A stretch of 64,000 nt of DNA from an uncultured Dehalococcoidia bacterium (lineage in GTDB: Bacteria; Chloroflexota; Dehalococcoidia; Lucifugimonadales; GCA-2712585). A program made the translations under genes and the position numbers. Within the stretch, counting starts at the first letter, position 1. Each line of letters opens with the position of its first letter. Positions 11,819 through 18,790 of this stretch are shown here, piece after piece. The stretch spans positions 1,001,183 to 1,065,182 of the forward strand of contig OY282371.1 of the NCBI GenBank assembly GCA_958295715.1, read 5' to 3'. The notes beneath the pieces are model-generated. The model saw only the letters and a list, made by a program, of their open reading frames with translations, searched no databases and was not told where the DNA came from.

Positions 11819-14398
11819 TTGACCCCCATTCGACGCCAATACCTCAGAATAAAACAGCGTTACCCCAACGCCATACTCCTGTTCCGCTTGGGCGACTTCT
11901 ACGAGACCTTTGACGATGACGCCAAGATAGCCTCCCAGGAGCTTGACATAGTCCTCACCTCCCGGAGCATGGGCAAAGGCGTGAAGGCGCCCATGGCCGG
12001 CATCCCCGCCCACGCCTTGGAGTCCTACCTGGCCAAGCTAATCAAGAAGGGCCACCGCGTGGCCATCTGCGAGCAGCTAAGCGACCCCGCCGCCTCGCGG
12101 GGCCTGGTTGACCGCAACGTGGTGCGCGTAGTCACCCCGGGCACCGTGGTGGAGCCGTCAATGCTCGACCAGGGGGCCAACAACTACCTGGCGGCCCTCG
12201 CCGTAGACGGCTCCCAAGCGGGACTGGCCTACATTGACATAACCACCGGCGAATACTCCACCGCCCAACTGCCCCTCAGCCACGTGGCCGCGGAGATTAC
12301 CCGCCTGGCCCCCGCCGAGCTCCTGGTCCCCCAAGACCGGGCGGAATGGCCCGACCTGGCCGTTGGCGCCGTGGTCCCCCTGCCGCCCTCAGACTTCGAC
12401 CCCGTGGCGGCCAAGGGCCTGCTGCTGGACCACTTCCAGGCCCTCACCCTGGAGCCTTACGGCTGCGAAAACCTGCCCCTGGCCGTCGGGTGCGCCGGGG
12501 CCATACTCTCCTACGTGGCGGCCAACCAGCCCATCGTCACCGAGCAGATATCCACCCTGCGGACCTACTCCACCGCCTCCTACATGACCCTTGACCCTCA
12601 GAGCAGCAGGAACCTTGAACTGTTTTCGGGGGGAAAGTGGGGCGCGCCGGGCCTCTCCCTCCTCTCCACCCTCGACTTCACCAGGACGTCCATGGGCGCC
12701 CGGCTCCTCACCCGGTGGCTGGGCCAACCCCTGCTCCAACTCGCGGAACTTCAACGGCGCCAGGAGGTCGTAGCCCTGCTTTACGACAACCTCCTCATGC
12801 GGTCTGAGATACGCAAGGCCCTATCCAAAGTGTCCGACCTCGAGCGCATAATGGGCAGGATCCAGCTAAACAGGGCCTCGCCCCGCGACCTTCTCGCCCT
12901 CAAGCAGAGCCTTGACGCCGCGGCGGGGGTATCGGCCCTCTTGGAGGGAGAGGAGCAGTTGGAAGCCCTCGCCGCCCTCAAAACGGGCGTGACCGCCTTT
13001 GGCGAGTTGTCATCCCTGGTGGAGAGGGCCGTTGTGGAGGAACCCTCCGGCGAGCCCGGCGATGGCGGCGTCGTTAAGCGGGGGTTCTCGCCGGACCTGG
13101 ACGACCTCCGCGCGGCGGCCGACGACGCCAAGGGCTTCATCGCCGGCCTTGAGCGCGCCGAGCGGCAGTCCACCGGCATCCGCTCCCTGAAGGTCGGCTA
13201 CAATCGTGTCTTCGGATACTACATTGAGGTCAGGCAGGCCCACCTGGCCCAGGTCCCCGACGCCTACGTCCGGAGGCAGACCCTGGCCAACGGCGAGCGG
13301 TTCATCACCCCCGAGCTTAAGGAGTACGAGTCGCGCATCCTCAACGCCCAGGAGCGCATCCAGACCCTGGAAAGGGACCTCTTCCGGCAGGTGTGCGGCC
13401 AGATAGGCCAACAGTCCCAGCAGGTGGCGTCCCTGGCCCGGACCATCGCGCGCCTAGACGTGCTCGCCTCCTTCGCCGAGGCCGCCTACCGCCACGGCTA
13501 TACGCGGCCCGTCCTGCTTGAAGACGGCCCGCTTGACGTCAAGGGAGGCCGTCACCCCATCGTGGAGCGGGCCCTTCCTCAGGGGGCCTTTGTGCCCAAC
13601 GACCTCCACGTCGCCACCGACTCCTCCCAGCTTCTCCTCATCACCGGCCCCAACATGTCGGGCAAGTCCACCTTCATCCGCCAGGCCGCCCTCATCACCC
13701 TAATGGCGCAAATTGGCAGCTTCGTGCCCGCCGACTCCGCCGTTGTGGGACTGGCCGACCGCATATTCACCCGCGTCGGCCTCCAAGATGACTCCTCCAC
13801 CGGCCAGTCAACCTTTATGGTGGAGATGGTGGAAACCGCCGCTATTCTCAACCAGGCCTCGCCCCGTTCCCTGATAATCCTCGACGAGATAGGAAGGGGA
13901 ACCAGCACCTACGACGGCCTATCCATAGCCCGCGCCGTGGCCGAGCATATCCACAACGACCCCCTGCTGGGCTGCCGGACGCTGTTCGCCACCCACTACC
14001 ACGAGCTCACCCAGTTGGCCGACAGCCTCCCGCGGGTGCGCAACCACACCGTGGCCGTCAGCGAGGAAGGCGGGAAGCTGGTCTTCCTGCATCGCATCGT
14101 GCCCGGCGGGGCCGACAGGAGCTACGGCGTTCACGTGGCCCAGCTTGCCGGGCTGCCCCAAACCGTCGTGCGCCGCGCCTGGGAGATACTGGAAACCCTG
14201 GAGGCGTCATCCCCGTCCGCGCCGGTCAACGGCGAAAGGCGCGGCGACAGCGGTCAAAGGTCTCAGCAGATGCCCCTCTTTTCCCTCAACCGCCCTCTGG
14301 TGGATGACCTGCTGCGGTTGGACGTCTCCAACATGACCCCCCTGGAGGCCATCAATAAGCTGTATGAGCTACAGTCCTTGGCGAAGGAGAGCGGTTAG
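11819..14398 (+). CDS. mutS: DNA mismatch repair protein MutS
   Basis: This 859-residue protein begins LTPIRRQYLRIKQRYP. It has the mismatch-reading domain I motif LLFRLGDFYETFDDDA, where F and E of FYE contact the mismatch. The ATPase has Walker A GPNMSGKSTFIRQ (G at about residue 610) and Walker B LIILDEIGRGTSTYDG, and the C-terminal helix-turn-helix dimer region ends at NMTPLEAINKLYEL. The length is normal for bacterial MutS1. The start is TTG at 11819 with AGGAGG about ten bases upstream. A predicted selenoprotein gene and mutL follow on the same strand. Confidence 0.96.
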   Translation: MTPIRRQYLRIKQRYPNAILLFRLGDFYETFDDDAKIASQELDIVLTSRSMGKGVKAPMAGIPAHALESYLAKLIKKGHRVAICEQLSDPAASRGLVDRNVVRVVTPGTVVEPSMLDQGANNYLAALAVDGSQAGLAYIDITTGEYSTAQLPLSHVAAEITRLAPAELLVPQDRAEWPDLAVGAVVPLPPSDFDPVAAKGLLLDHFQALTLEPYGCENLPLAVGCAGAILSYVAANQPIVTEQISTLRTYSTASYMTLDPQSSRNLELFSGGKWGAPGLSLLSTLDFTRTSMGARLLTRWLGQPLLQLAELQRRQEVVALLYDNLLMRSEIRKALSKVSDLERIMGRIQLNRASPRDLLALKQSLDAAAGVSALLEGEEQLEALAALKTGVTAFGELSSLVERAVVEEPSGEPGDGGVVKRGFSPDLDDLRAAADDAKGFIAGLERAERQSTGIRSLKVGYNRVFGYYIEVRQAHLAQVPDAYVRRQTLANGERFITPELKEYESRILNAQERIQTLERDLFRQVCGQIGQQSQQVASLARTIARLDVLASFAEAAYRHGYTRPVLLEDGPLDVKGGRHPIVERALPQGAFVPNDLHVATDSSQLLLITGPNMSGKSTFIRQAALITLMAQIGSFVPADSAVVGLADRIFTRVGLQDDSSTGQSTFMVEMVETAAILNQASPRSLIILDEIGRGTSTYDGLSIARAVAEHIHNDPLLGCRTLFATHYHELTQLADSLPRVRNHTVAVSEEGGKLVFLHRIVPGGADRSYGVHVAQLAGLPQTVVRRAWEILETLEASSPSAPVNGERRGDSGQRSQQMPLFSLNRPLVDDLLRLDVSNMTPLEAINKLYELQSLAKESG

Positions 14399-14436
14399 AC
14401 GCCGCCCGCCACATCTCAAGCCCGAAAGGAGAAAGC

Positions 14437-14793
14437 ATGACCAAGCGGATAACCCTCTACTGGTGGGCGCGTTGAAGCTCCTGCCGCAAAGCGAGAGAGT
14501 TGCTCTCGCGCGTGGGCGTGGAGTTCGAAGCCCGTGACTTCTTCAAGGAACCCTTCGCTGAGGATGAGCTTGCGGCCATGATGAAGCTGGCCCCGCCGTC
14601 GGAGATCTTCTCATGGAGGAGTCCCAGCCTGAAGTCCATGGACGTCGACAGGGAGAGCCTTATGCCGGAAGACCTGCTCCGCCTCATGCTCCAAGAGCCG
14701 CGGCTCATCCGCCGCCCCATCCTGCGAGTGGGCGACCGGCTCATCGTCGGCGCCAACCTCAAGACCATTGAGGCGGCTTTGCGGGAGGAGTAG
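14437..14793 (+). CDS. ArsC/Spx-like thioredoxin-fold selenoprotein (in-frame UGA read as Sec)
   Basis: The ATG at 14437 has GGAG five bases upstream. The frame runs 12 codons to a TGA at 14473-14475, then on without another stop to TAG at 14791. Reading TGA as selenocysteine (U13) gives 118 residues starting MTKRITLYWWAR-U-SSC-RKA. This matches the ArsC/Spx/YffB redox site (P-S-C-x-x-C-R-K-A), with U exactly where relatives carry the first Cys. Downstream family features are intact: LMLQEPRLIRRPILRVGDRLIVG. A SECIS-like hairpin begins 15 nt (extended) after the UGA. It sits between mutS and mutL. Likely a thiol/selenol oxidoreductase. The alternative, a nonsense mutation or sequencing error, is less likely given the exact position and hairpin. 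Confidence 0.82.
14485..14512 (+). promoter_or_regulatory. bSECIS-like hairpin directing Sec insertion
   Basis: GCGAGAG (14491-14497) pairs perfectly with CTCTCGC (14503-14509) around the five-base loop AGTTG. CGC (14485-14487) and GCG (14510-14512) extend the stem across an AAA bulge. The apical loop starts 22 nt after the UGA at 14473-14475 and has G as its second base. Both agree with the published bacterial SECIS model: a loop roughly 16-37 nt downstream with G among its first two bases. The hairpin lies inside the coding sequence, as bacterial SECIS elements must. Confidence 0.75.
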
Positions 14794-14978
14794 CGGCCGG
14801 CGCGTGCCTCTGCCGTGAGTCTGATAGCTTCCTTGGCGTGAGTCTCGCCCAATGGCCGGTTGCGCTCGTCTATCCTTCCCGGCAAATGGAACAAAGCGCC
14901 CCAAAATGGTACTATCACAGCGACCCGCTTACATCCGACTACACCCAGCCGTGAGAACCTCAGCGTGAGCTCCGCCCC

Positions 14979-16688
14979 GTGACCATAAGGCTACTCTCAA
15001 CGCAGCTTGCCGCCAAAATCGCCGCCGGCGAGGTGGTGGAACGCCCCGTTTCCGTGGTCAAGGAGCTGGTGGAAAACTCCATTGACGCCGGCTCTTCTCA
15101 GGTCATCGTCGAGATACGGGGCGGCGGCGTGGCCCTCATCCGGGTGGTGGACAACGGCTCCGGCATAGAACCCGGCCAGGTCCCCCTGGCCTTCCAGCGC
15201 CACGCCACCAGCAAGCTGACCTCCCCCGCCGACCTGGACGCCATCTCCACCCTCGGCTTCCGGGGCGAGGCCCTGCCCAGCATCGCCGCCGTTTCCCAGA
15301 TAATCCTCGTCACGCGGCAGCCCGGCTCCGACACCGGTTGGGAGGCGTCGCTGCGCTGGGGCGCCCTTCTAAGCCAGGGTCCGAAAGGCTGCCCGCCCGG
15401 GGCGTCGATCACCGTTTCCAACCTGTTCGAAAACGTGCCGGCCAGGCGCAACTTCCTCCGTTCCCCCGCCGCCGAGTCCAATCGAATCAAGGAGTTGACG
15501 ACCCGTTTCGCCCTGGCCTACCCGGAGGTTGGATTTCAGCTAACGATAGACGGCCGCAGCGTCCTGAAGTCACCCGGCCAAGGCCGCATGGAAGACCCCC
15601 TCGTCTCCGTCTACGGCGCCGAGGTAGCGAAGCAGCTAATGCCCGTTCTCTGGGAAGACGCCTCTAGCGGCCTGAAAGTGGAGGGCTTCGTCTCCCCCCC
15701 GTCCCTGCACCGTTCGAACCGCCGGCACATCACCTTCTTTGTCAACCGCCGGTGGATAAGGAGCCGGATGCTGTCCATCGCGGTGGAGGAGTCCTACCAC
15801 CGGCTGCTGCCCCAGGGACGCTATCCCGTGGCGATACTTAACATAACCGTCCCCTACCCCAGCGTTGACGTCAACGTGCACCCCACCAAGGCCGAGGTGC
15901 GGTTTCGCCAGGGCGACAGGGTGTTTTCCGCCACCCAAAGGGCGGTGCGCGGCGCGCTCATCACCGCATCCCCCGTTCCCCAAATACACCCTGAGCCCAC
16001 CGCGGGAGGGCCTTCCAACCAACCGGCCCAGCCCTCCTTCATCTCCGCCCGCTCCTCGCTGACGCGCCCCCGCCCCGCCGCCGACGCCGGCCCATCTCCC
16101 GGCGCCGAGGTGGAAACGCCGGCCCTCAGGGTTCTTGGGCAGGCGGGCAGCGCCTACATTGTGGCCGAAGGCCCCGACGGCATCTTCCTTCTGGACCAGC
16201 ACGCCGCCCATGAGCGCGTCCTCTACGAGAAGATTATGAGGGAAATGAGCCAGGGCGACCCCTCGTCCCAAACCCTCCTTGAGCCCGTCACCGTGGAGAT
16301 TCCCCCCACCCACTCGGACATGGCCCGCGACGGGTGGCGGGAACTGGCGAGCTACGGATTCGTTCTTGAGTCTTTTGGAGACGACACCTGTCTGCTGCGG
16401 GCCGTTCCCTCCATCTTCCGCGACTCAGACCCGGCCAAGGGCCTTCTGGAGGTCCTGGACATGGTGGCCCGCGAGACGGCATCCCGTGAAGGGCGCGCGG
16501 AAATCCTCGCGGCGTCTATCGCCTGCCATAGCTCGGTAACGGCGGGCATGACCCTAAGCTTGGAGGAGATGAGGGAGATAATAGCGTTGCTGGAGGCGGT
16601 GGAGAATCCCCACACCTGCCCCCACGGAAGGCCCACCATGCTGCATCTTAGCTCCCAGCACTTGGAGCGGCAGTTCGGACGGCGTTAG
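14979..16688 (+). CDS. mutL: DNA mismatch repair endonuclease MutL
   Basis: This 569-residue protein has the GHKL ATPase motifs ENSIDAG, DNGSGI and GFRGEALPSIAAVS in the N-terminal half, a Pro/Ala-rich linker at about residues 335-380, and a C-terminal nicking domain. The metal-dependent endonuclease motif DQHAAHERVLYE starts at D406. The supporting ACHSS and CPHGRP motifs are also present, so this is the nicking type found in bacteria without MutH. GTG start at 14979. The 185 bp between the selenoprotein gene and mutL show no further gene. It is the partner of the MutS encoded upstream. Confidence 0.95.
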   Translation: MTIRLLSTQLAAKIAAGEVVERPVSVVKELVENSIDAGSSQVIVEIRGGGVALIRVVDNGSGIEPGQVPLAFQRHATSKLTSPADLDAISTLGFRGEALPSIAAVSQIILVTRQPGSDTGWEASLRWGALLSQGPKGCPPGASITVSNLFENVPARRNFLRSPAAESNRIKELTTRFALAYPEVGFQLTIDGRSVLKSPGQGRMEDPLVSVYGAEVAKQLMPVLWEDASSGLKVEGFVSPPSLHRSNRRHITFFVNRRWIRSRMLSIAVEESYHRLLPQGRYPVAILNITVPYPSVDVNVHPTKAEVRFRQGDRVFSATQRAVRGALITASPVPQIHPEPTAGGPSNQPAQPSFISARSSLTRPRPAADAGPSPGAEVETPALRVLGQAGSAYIVAEGPDGIFLLDQHAAHERVLYEKIMREMSQGDPSSQTLLEPVTVEIPPTHSDMARDGWRELASYGFVLESFGDDTCLLRAVPSIFRDSDPAKGLLEVLDMVARETASREGRAEILAASIACHSSVTAGMTLSLEEMREIIALLEAVENPHTCPHGRPTMLHLSSQHLERQFGRR

Positions 16689-16938: not shown

Positions 16939-17029
16939 AAATCCACGTCCCTTCAAAATTCCCCACTCCCGACAGAATCTGTTCGCTATAGTTTAACCCT
17001 TCTCGCAAAACTTACAAGGGGTTATTTCC

Positions 17030-17610
17030 CCCCTTCCGACACTCCCGCCTGCCGGGAACCCAGGAACCCCTCATCCCAGAACCAACGCTCCTCAAAACGA
17101 AAATGGGCGCACGCGCCCTTCCCGCGCAGGCGGGAATCCAGGGGTGGGGAGGTCAGTTGCGCGGAAGGAAGGGATAGCAGGCCAAAGCGGGGGGTTATGA
17201 GAGGATCCCCACGGATAGACACGCTGTTATAGACAGGATGGCGCGTTGGCAGGGGATGAGAAAGAGAAGATGGATTCCCGTTTTCACGGGAATGACGGAT
17301 AAGAGGGCGGGAATCCAGGGGTGGGGAGGTCAGTTGCGCGGAAGAAAGGGATAGCAGGCCAAAGCGGGGGGTTATGAGAGGGTCCCCACGGATAGACACG
17401 CTGTTATAGACAGGATGGCGCGTTGGCAGGGGATGAGAAAGGGAAGATGGATTCCCGTTTTCACGGGAATGACGGATAAGAGGGCGGGAATCCAGGAACC
17501 TGCCATCCCAGAACCAACGCCGCGAACCCTGCTCCCCCCCCCTTCCGTCATTCCCGCGCAGGCGGGAACCCAGGAATCCCTCATCCCAGAACCAACGCCG
17601 CGAACTCCCC
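17030..17610. repeat. REP-like cluster containing a 177-bp tandem duplication (17131-17484)
   Basis: Two adjacent copies of a 177-bp unit (17131-17307 and 17308-17484) differ at only about three positions, and the first bases of a third copy follow at 17485. Each unit starts and ends inside a REP-like hairpin, and the hairpins inside have TTCCCGT/ACGGGAA arms. Single REP-like copies flank the pair near 17120 and 17550, the former joined to a GGGCGC-ACGCGCCC hairpin. Open frames across this stretch are translated repeats, not genes. Confidence 0.9.
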
Positions 17611-17762
17611 CACCTGCCGGGGCTTCGCTTACCTCTTCGGTGTACGGCATCTATCTGAACGAAATCGAGGATTCCGCCTTCGTTTAAGCGTGTACAGCCA
17701 TACAATGATATGCTAATATATCGCACAGATATTCTTACACCGTCTATCTTAAGGAGGTATTA

Positions 17763-18529: not shown

Positions 18530-18705
18530 CCCCAACCCCCCCGCCTGCCGGGGCGTCCCTCGTGGACGCCTCCGCGGTTCAATGGCGGCCCCAATCCAGC
18601 CGCCAGCCAAGCAGGAGGTCACCATTCCCGCCCCTCCCTTTCCGTCATTCCCGTGAAAACGGGAATCCAGGAACCTCTCATCCCAGAATCAACGCCGCAA
18701 ATCCC
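18530..18705. repeat. Repeat island downstream of the HEPN-like gene
   Basis: It holds a REP-like copy with TTCCCGT/ACGGGAA arms (about 18648-18666). The following tail, CCTCTCATCCCAGAATCAAC, also occurs just upstream of the HEPN-like gene (about 17575-17600). A CCTGCCGGGGC stretch is likewise present on both sides. The AT-rich gene is therefore bracketed by related repeats. No gene is seen between 18516 and 18790. Confidence 0.65.
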
Positions 18706-18790
18706 GCCGCCCCTCCCCCTCAACGCTAGGCTATTGACACACAGGCGCCGTTGCCAGTAGCGTTTAGCGAAATCACGGCGTCCTGCGCCC

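Follow-up and report, generated by a model that had tools for sequence, protein, structure and literature searches.

An in-frame UGA may stand for selenocysteine (Sec), for another amino acid in an altered code, or for damage to a gene or to its sequence. Which of these holds for a gene of the ArsC/Spx redox family in an uncultured Chloroflexota genome, and how the encoded protein might work, are the questions raised by the locus studied here. It lies in a 64,000-nt stretch of DNA from a Dehalococcoidia bacterium, hereafter called the window.

A reading frame with a single internal UGA

The gene occupies 14437..14793 on the forward strand. Its frame ends with the stop codon TAG (14791-14793) and is broken by one TGA only, at 14473-14475 (+). 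With Sec at this codon the product has 118 residues; the UGA is residue 13, the first position of a UxxC motif (U13-S-S-C16), and the N-terminus reads MTKRITLYWWAR-U13-SS-C16-RKA. By direct reading, a GGAG ribosome-binding site (14428..14431, +, within AGGAG) is located 5 nt 5' of ATG 14437, and GGAG or GGAGG is found at the same distance from the start in many homologues. The flanks of the gene showed neither a promoter nor a terminator consensus. A mechanical ORF caller returned only a 97-aa ORF from TTG 14500, within the loop of the hairpin described below.

These features had been proposed in an earlier note made from the sequence alone. Its start codon and ribosome-binding site, its single TGA in a frame running to 14793, the placing of that TGA on the first CxxC position, and the prediction that gene calling would start inside the hairpin were all confirmed by our reading. 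The perfect hairpin that it noted at SECIS distance fared equally well, as it meets a published model and covaries.

A covarying hairpin follows the UGA

The apical hairpin (14491..14509, +) consists of a perfect 7-bp stem, 14491-14497 paired with 14503-14509, and the loop AGUUG (14498-14502). The stem begins 15 nt and the loop 22 nt past the UGA. The 51 nt 3' of the TGA fold with -26.8 kcal/mol (z -3.0), and none of 200 shuffles was as stable. The published model of bacterial SECIS elements comprises a loop of 3-9 nt, a stem of 4-16 bp, a UGA-to-loop distance of 16-37 nt, a G in the first two loop positions and an MFE of at most -7.5 (PMC13188914); the window hairpin satisfies it with its AGUUG loop, 7-bp stem and 22-nt spacing.

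In the 27 TGA-bearing homologues of the set described below, 97.4% of the stem cells are paired, and compensatory changes on both sides were detected in five of the seven stem pairs (21 cells vs. 5.1 in shuffles, with 0 of 500 shuffles as high). Controls with the register slid along the alignment were all far below the true register, and RNAalifold, run unaided, found the same helix and none besides. In nearly all loci, the second loop base is G and is followed by U or G. Four TGA loci of one subgroup (L042, L077, L079 and L088) share a stem variant that pairs only if a bulge is allowed, and the stem of two others (L124 and L115) pairs in part. In the same register, two to three pairs are left in the three TGC homologues and two in the single TGT locus. 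As the hairpin has decayed in these Cys forms despite conservation of the surrounding protein, it tracks the UGA and not the protein.

A lower stem can be predicted from the window sequence as well (14477..14524, +; 14477-14485 with 14515-14518 and 14520-14524). It is a possible part of the SECIS element, with 63.8% of its cells paired among homologues and its outer pairs not conserved. A scan of 14300-14900 against Rfam gave no SECIS family, only chance matches below the gathering scores (ASpks, L31 leader, IRES_Bip). A covariance model of the region (R1) was set aside because it also modelled the protein-coding flanks.

TGA and Cys codons among homologues

A protein search of 60 relatives gave a match in 35 genomes. 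The search patterns were without bias to TGA, and the pattern spanning the U13 site used Cys. In 30 homologues of the same order, including the window's own, the codon at this site was TGA 27 times and TGC three times (L034, L041 and L043), while the second Cys of the motif was kept in all 30. Protein identity of the TGA-bearing homologues was about 40-71%. A class-wide search with the alignment profile yielded 42 matches, 37 of them with one TGA and five with none, one of these five starting 3' of the site. Finally, a collection of 80 loci from named organisms, mostly Dehalococcoidia/SAR202 and Syntrophaceae/Smithella, contained TGA in 79 loci and TGT in one (L113, a Cyanobacteria bin); since the collections overlap (e.g. 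L018 and L047), the counts over 30 homologues and over 80 loci are not independent.

The tree of the gene is based on about 117 columns and many of its forks are unresolved. Each of the three TGC forms pairs with a Sec form in it: L034 with L077 (96/68), L041 with L080 (97/83) and L043 with L046 (99/92). This position beside Sec forms suggests that replacement of Sec by Cys occurred separately in the three cases. Five copies from Dehalococcoidia/Dehalococcoidales (L068, L087, L102, L112 and L122) nest within the Syntrophaceae/Smithella clade and not with SAR202, the clade as a whole being supported at 100/100. This placing suggests that the gene has been transferred between Dehalococcoidia and syntrophic Desulfobacterota.

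Sec machinery of the host genomes

The genome of the window encodes SelA (E 2e-132), SelD (E 4e-110), the SelB C-terminal domain (E 5e-20) and a tRNA-Sec with anticodon TCA (UCA). Its selD gene (L013, G000:C1:70120-71043, minus strand) has an in-frame TGA of its own, in the context CAG-U-ASKF and followed by a stable hairpin, which makes SelD of this genome a probable selenoprotein too.

Among the relatives, SelB was detected in each of the 32 genomes whose copy has TGA vs. one of the three whose copy has Cys; it was not found in G036 or G047. The probability that both SelB-less genomes would fall by chance among the three Cys genomes of 35 is 0.005, in a test that was chosen post hoc. Of the relatives without the gene, 14 of 18 possess SelB. 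The one Cys-form genome that retains SelB (G046, locus L041) shares its genus with G007, whose copy is of the Sec form; here, Sec was apparently replaced by Cys recently and without loss of Sec decoding.

What the UGA encodes

On this comparative evidence, UGA 14473 almost certainly codes for Sec and the gene would thus be a bacterial selenoprotein gene. Chance is ruled out by the conservation of TGA, frame and hairpin across dozens of genomes. A genome-wide altered code, with UGA read as another amino acid such as Cys or Trp, would accord with the existence of homologues having Cys at the U13 site. It is scarcely credible, however, given the full Sec system and a hairpin that tracks the TGA; moreover, several homologues use TGA as the terminal stop of the same gene, which excludes global reassignment of UGA in those organisms. 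One could also suppose that the gene is a pseudogene, or that sequencing or assembly altered an original TGC or TGT, as TGA is one base off either codon and the frame appears broken under standard gene calling, but both are refuted by the same TGA in dozens of independent genomes, the covarying hairpin and the otherwise intact frames.

The earlier note had proposed to look for selA, selB, selC and selD in the genome and for homologues with Cys aligned to U13, and had named resequencing of 14473-14475 to TGC or TGT as a finding that would overturn its case. All four sel genes were found, the homologues have Sec or Cys precisely at that site, and recurrence of the TGA in independent genomes excludes a sequencing error in practice. 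Its proposal of an ArsC/Spx-family selenoprotein is therefore supported, none of the tested routes to refutation having refuted it.

Fold and family membership

The protein scores 57.7 bits with Pfam ArsC (PF03960), for which the cut-off is 24, and no second PF03960 match turned up in the genome. Its AlphaFold model has a mean pLDDT of 92.5. The best PDB match to the model is Spx (1z3e, TM 0.87, 37% identity), followed by ArsC-like proteins and E. coli ArsC at TM about 0.8. Sequence profiles run against solved structures also rank Spx first (E 2e-24).

The catalytic residues of ArsC are Arg60, Arg94 and Arg107, in addition to which Cys12 serves as the reference for the nucleophile position. 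The protein shares with E. coli ArsC the fold, the nucleophile position (Cys12 corresponds to U13) and Arg94, kept in 30 of 30 members. A selenium-dependent arsenate reductase, in which U13 would attack arsenate as Cys12 does, has these likenesses in its favour, together with selenoproteins of that name predicted from ocean metagenomes (PMC2398784, PMC1088965). In contrast to ArsC, however, the protein has UxxC in place of CxxS, a gap at the Arg107 position in 30/30 and no clean match to Arg60 (S59 is aligned, with R61 two residues on). Its score with TIGR00014 (ArsC) is 40.4 bits vs. a cut-off of 106.05. The gene neighbours mutS and mutL and adjoins no ars gene, and none of its conserved neighbour families is arsenic-like as judged from sequence. 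Reduction of arsenate is thus an unlikely function.

As for Spx of Bacillus (1z3e, 7f75), it is the closest protein in both sequence and fold. The UxxC aligns with its Cys10/Cys13 redox pair, Sec replacing the first Cys, and Arg92 is common to both (30/30). One could hence imagine a Sec-containing Spx-like switch that binds RNA polymerase and alters transcription upon oxidation of U13-C16. Against this, the position of Gly52, an absolute requirement for contact with the RNA polymerase alpha-CTD (PMC2801614, PMC3386922), lies in a two-residue gap in each of the 30 members. Every member has Pro in place of Lys62 (30/30), Arg60 is retained in only 17 of the 30, and the C-terminal tail of Spx is absent from the 118-residue protein. 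The NCBIfam Spx model is matched with 68.7 bits where the cut-off is 123. Such a switch is, in our view, quite improbable.

The protein also scores below the cut-off of NF041106 (ArsC_rel_Se_1), with 35.5 bits vs. 85. When NF041106 was run on 301 genomes of the phylum at E 1e-12, there was no match, and the controls gave none either. From the failed Spx, ArsC and NF041106 cut-offs, together with the missing Gly52 and Arg107, it follows that the protein is a separate branch of the ArsC/Spx fold. The branch has invariants of its own, including R33, F36, F58, S62-P63, E87-P88-R89, R93-P94 and G105.

Proposed function

A model in which the protein is an enzyme can be outlined as follows. Translation would start at ATG 14437, and at UGA 14473 the SECIS hairpin would recruit SelB and Sec-tRNA-Sec, Sec becoming residue 13. 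Located at the start of helix 1, U13 would be the nucleophile of the UxxC active site. Judging from fold and motif, it would most likely attack an oxidised substrate (a disulfide, peroxide or oxyanion), C16 would resolve the intermediate to a selenenylsulfide, and a thioredoxin- or glutaredoxin-type reductant would regenerate the latter. If the protein is a selenoprotein, such a role is likely. The reading as a whole, i.e. a selenoprotein of the thioredoxin-fold ArsC/Spx family working as a UxxC thiol/selenol oxidoreductase, we regard as probable. Sec at the nucleophile position argues for catalysis, and a catalytic redox enzyme is more likely than an RNA-polymerase-binding regulator of Spx type. 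It is a rather remote prospect that this uncatalogued, mainly Sec-containing Spx/ArsC branch of SAR202/Dehalococcoidia and syntrophic Desulfobacterota comprises redox sensors acting through Sec on transcription or a partner protein, and not enzymes.

Genomic neighbourhood

As named from reading of their translations, mutS (11819-14398) adjoins the gene on its 5' side and mutL (14979-16688) is located 3' of it. About 20 loci, all from one SAR202 group, have the same order of mutS, Sec gene and mutL; elsewhere the neighbours differ. Being clade-specific, this linkage was rejected as a functional clue and is taken as an inherited position. Eleven loci, L061 among them, encode a small HAD-like protein of about 149 aa (IFFDVDYTILGLDNTL) between the Sec gene and mutL; the corresponding gap in the window (14794-14978) lacks room for it. 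Intergenic repeats are present at 17024-17614 and 18631-18711. They include a 177-nt unit present as two tandem copies (17129-17482, 98% identical) and 29-nt palindromes of the CGTCATTCCCGCGCAGGCGGGAACCCAGG type scattered in both orientations, and look like a dispersed genomic repeat element.

Relation to known selenoproteins and significance

Among domain models, we take cd03032 to be the Spx-type ArsC domain. The Global Ocean Sampling (GOS) selenoproteome of 2008 contains an 'Arsenate reductase 2' assigned to cd03032, with UxxC (PMC2398784). That family, from marine samples, resembles the present gene in having Sec in an ArsC-family protein and in its UxxC, and the gene likely belongs to it, as compared by description. 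Selenoproteins from the Sargasso Sea named arsenate reductase have UxxS (PMC1088965), and later reviews list a UxxC arsenate-reductase-like selenoprotein (PMC9312934, PMC13188914). The ArsC family (seleno)protein NF041106 (PMC13188914) is alike in ArsC fold and UxxC, although our protein falls below its cut-off. ArsC-like Sec proteins of Deltaproteobacteria (e.g. Desulfotalea, PMC1794560) are of similar type, again by description, and the present family also occurs in Syntrophaceae/Smithella. Literature searches for selenoproteins in connection with Spx and arsenate reductase, or with SAR202, turned up no papers.

UxxC ArsC/Spx-like selenoproteins were thus already predicted by 2008 from ocean metagenomes (PMC2398784; see also PMC9312934, PMC13188914); the kind is not new, and the present gene joins it. 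Added here are the genomes that carry the gene, covariation of the SECIS stem, a coupling between the Sec/Cys state and the presence of SECIS and SelB, and the finding that the protein fails the membership tests for Spx, ArsC and NF041106. Standard annotation is likely to miss or truncate the gene, and a dedicated profile model would mend annotation across many genomes. In the GOS survey overall, Cys homologues numbered 58,225 vs. 3,506 selenoproteins (PMC2398784), whereas this family is nearly all Sec (79 of 80 loci), which makes it well suited for tracing the use of Sec in syntrophs and in uncultured SAR202 Chloroflexota. Its scattered changes from Sec to Cys, with loss of SECIS and sometimes of SelB, offer a natural experiment on the contribution of Sec.
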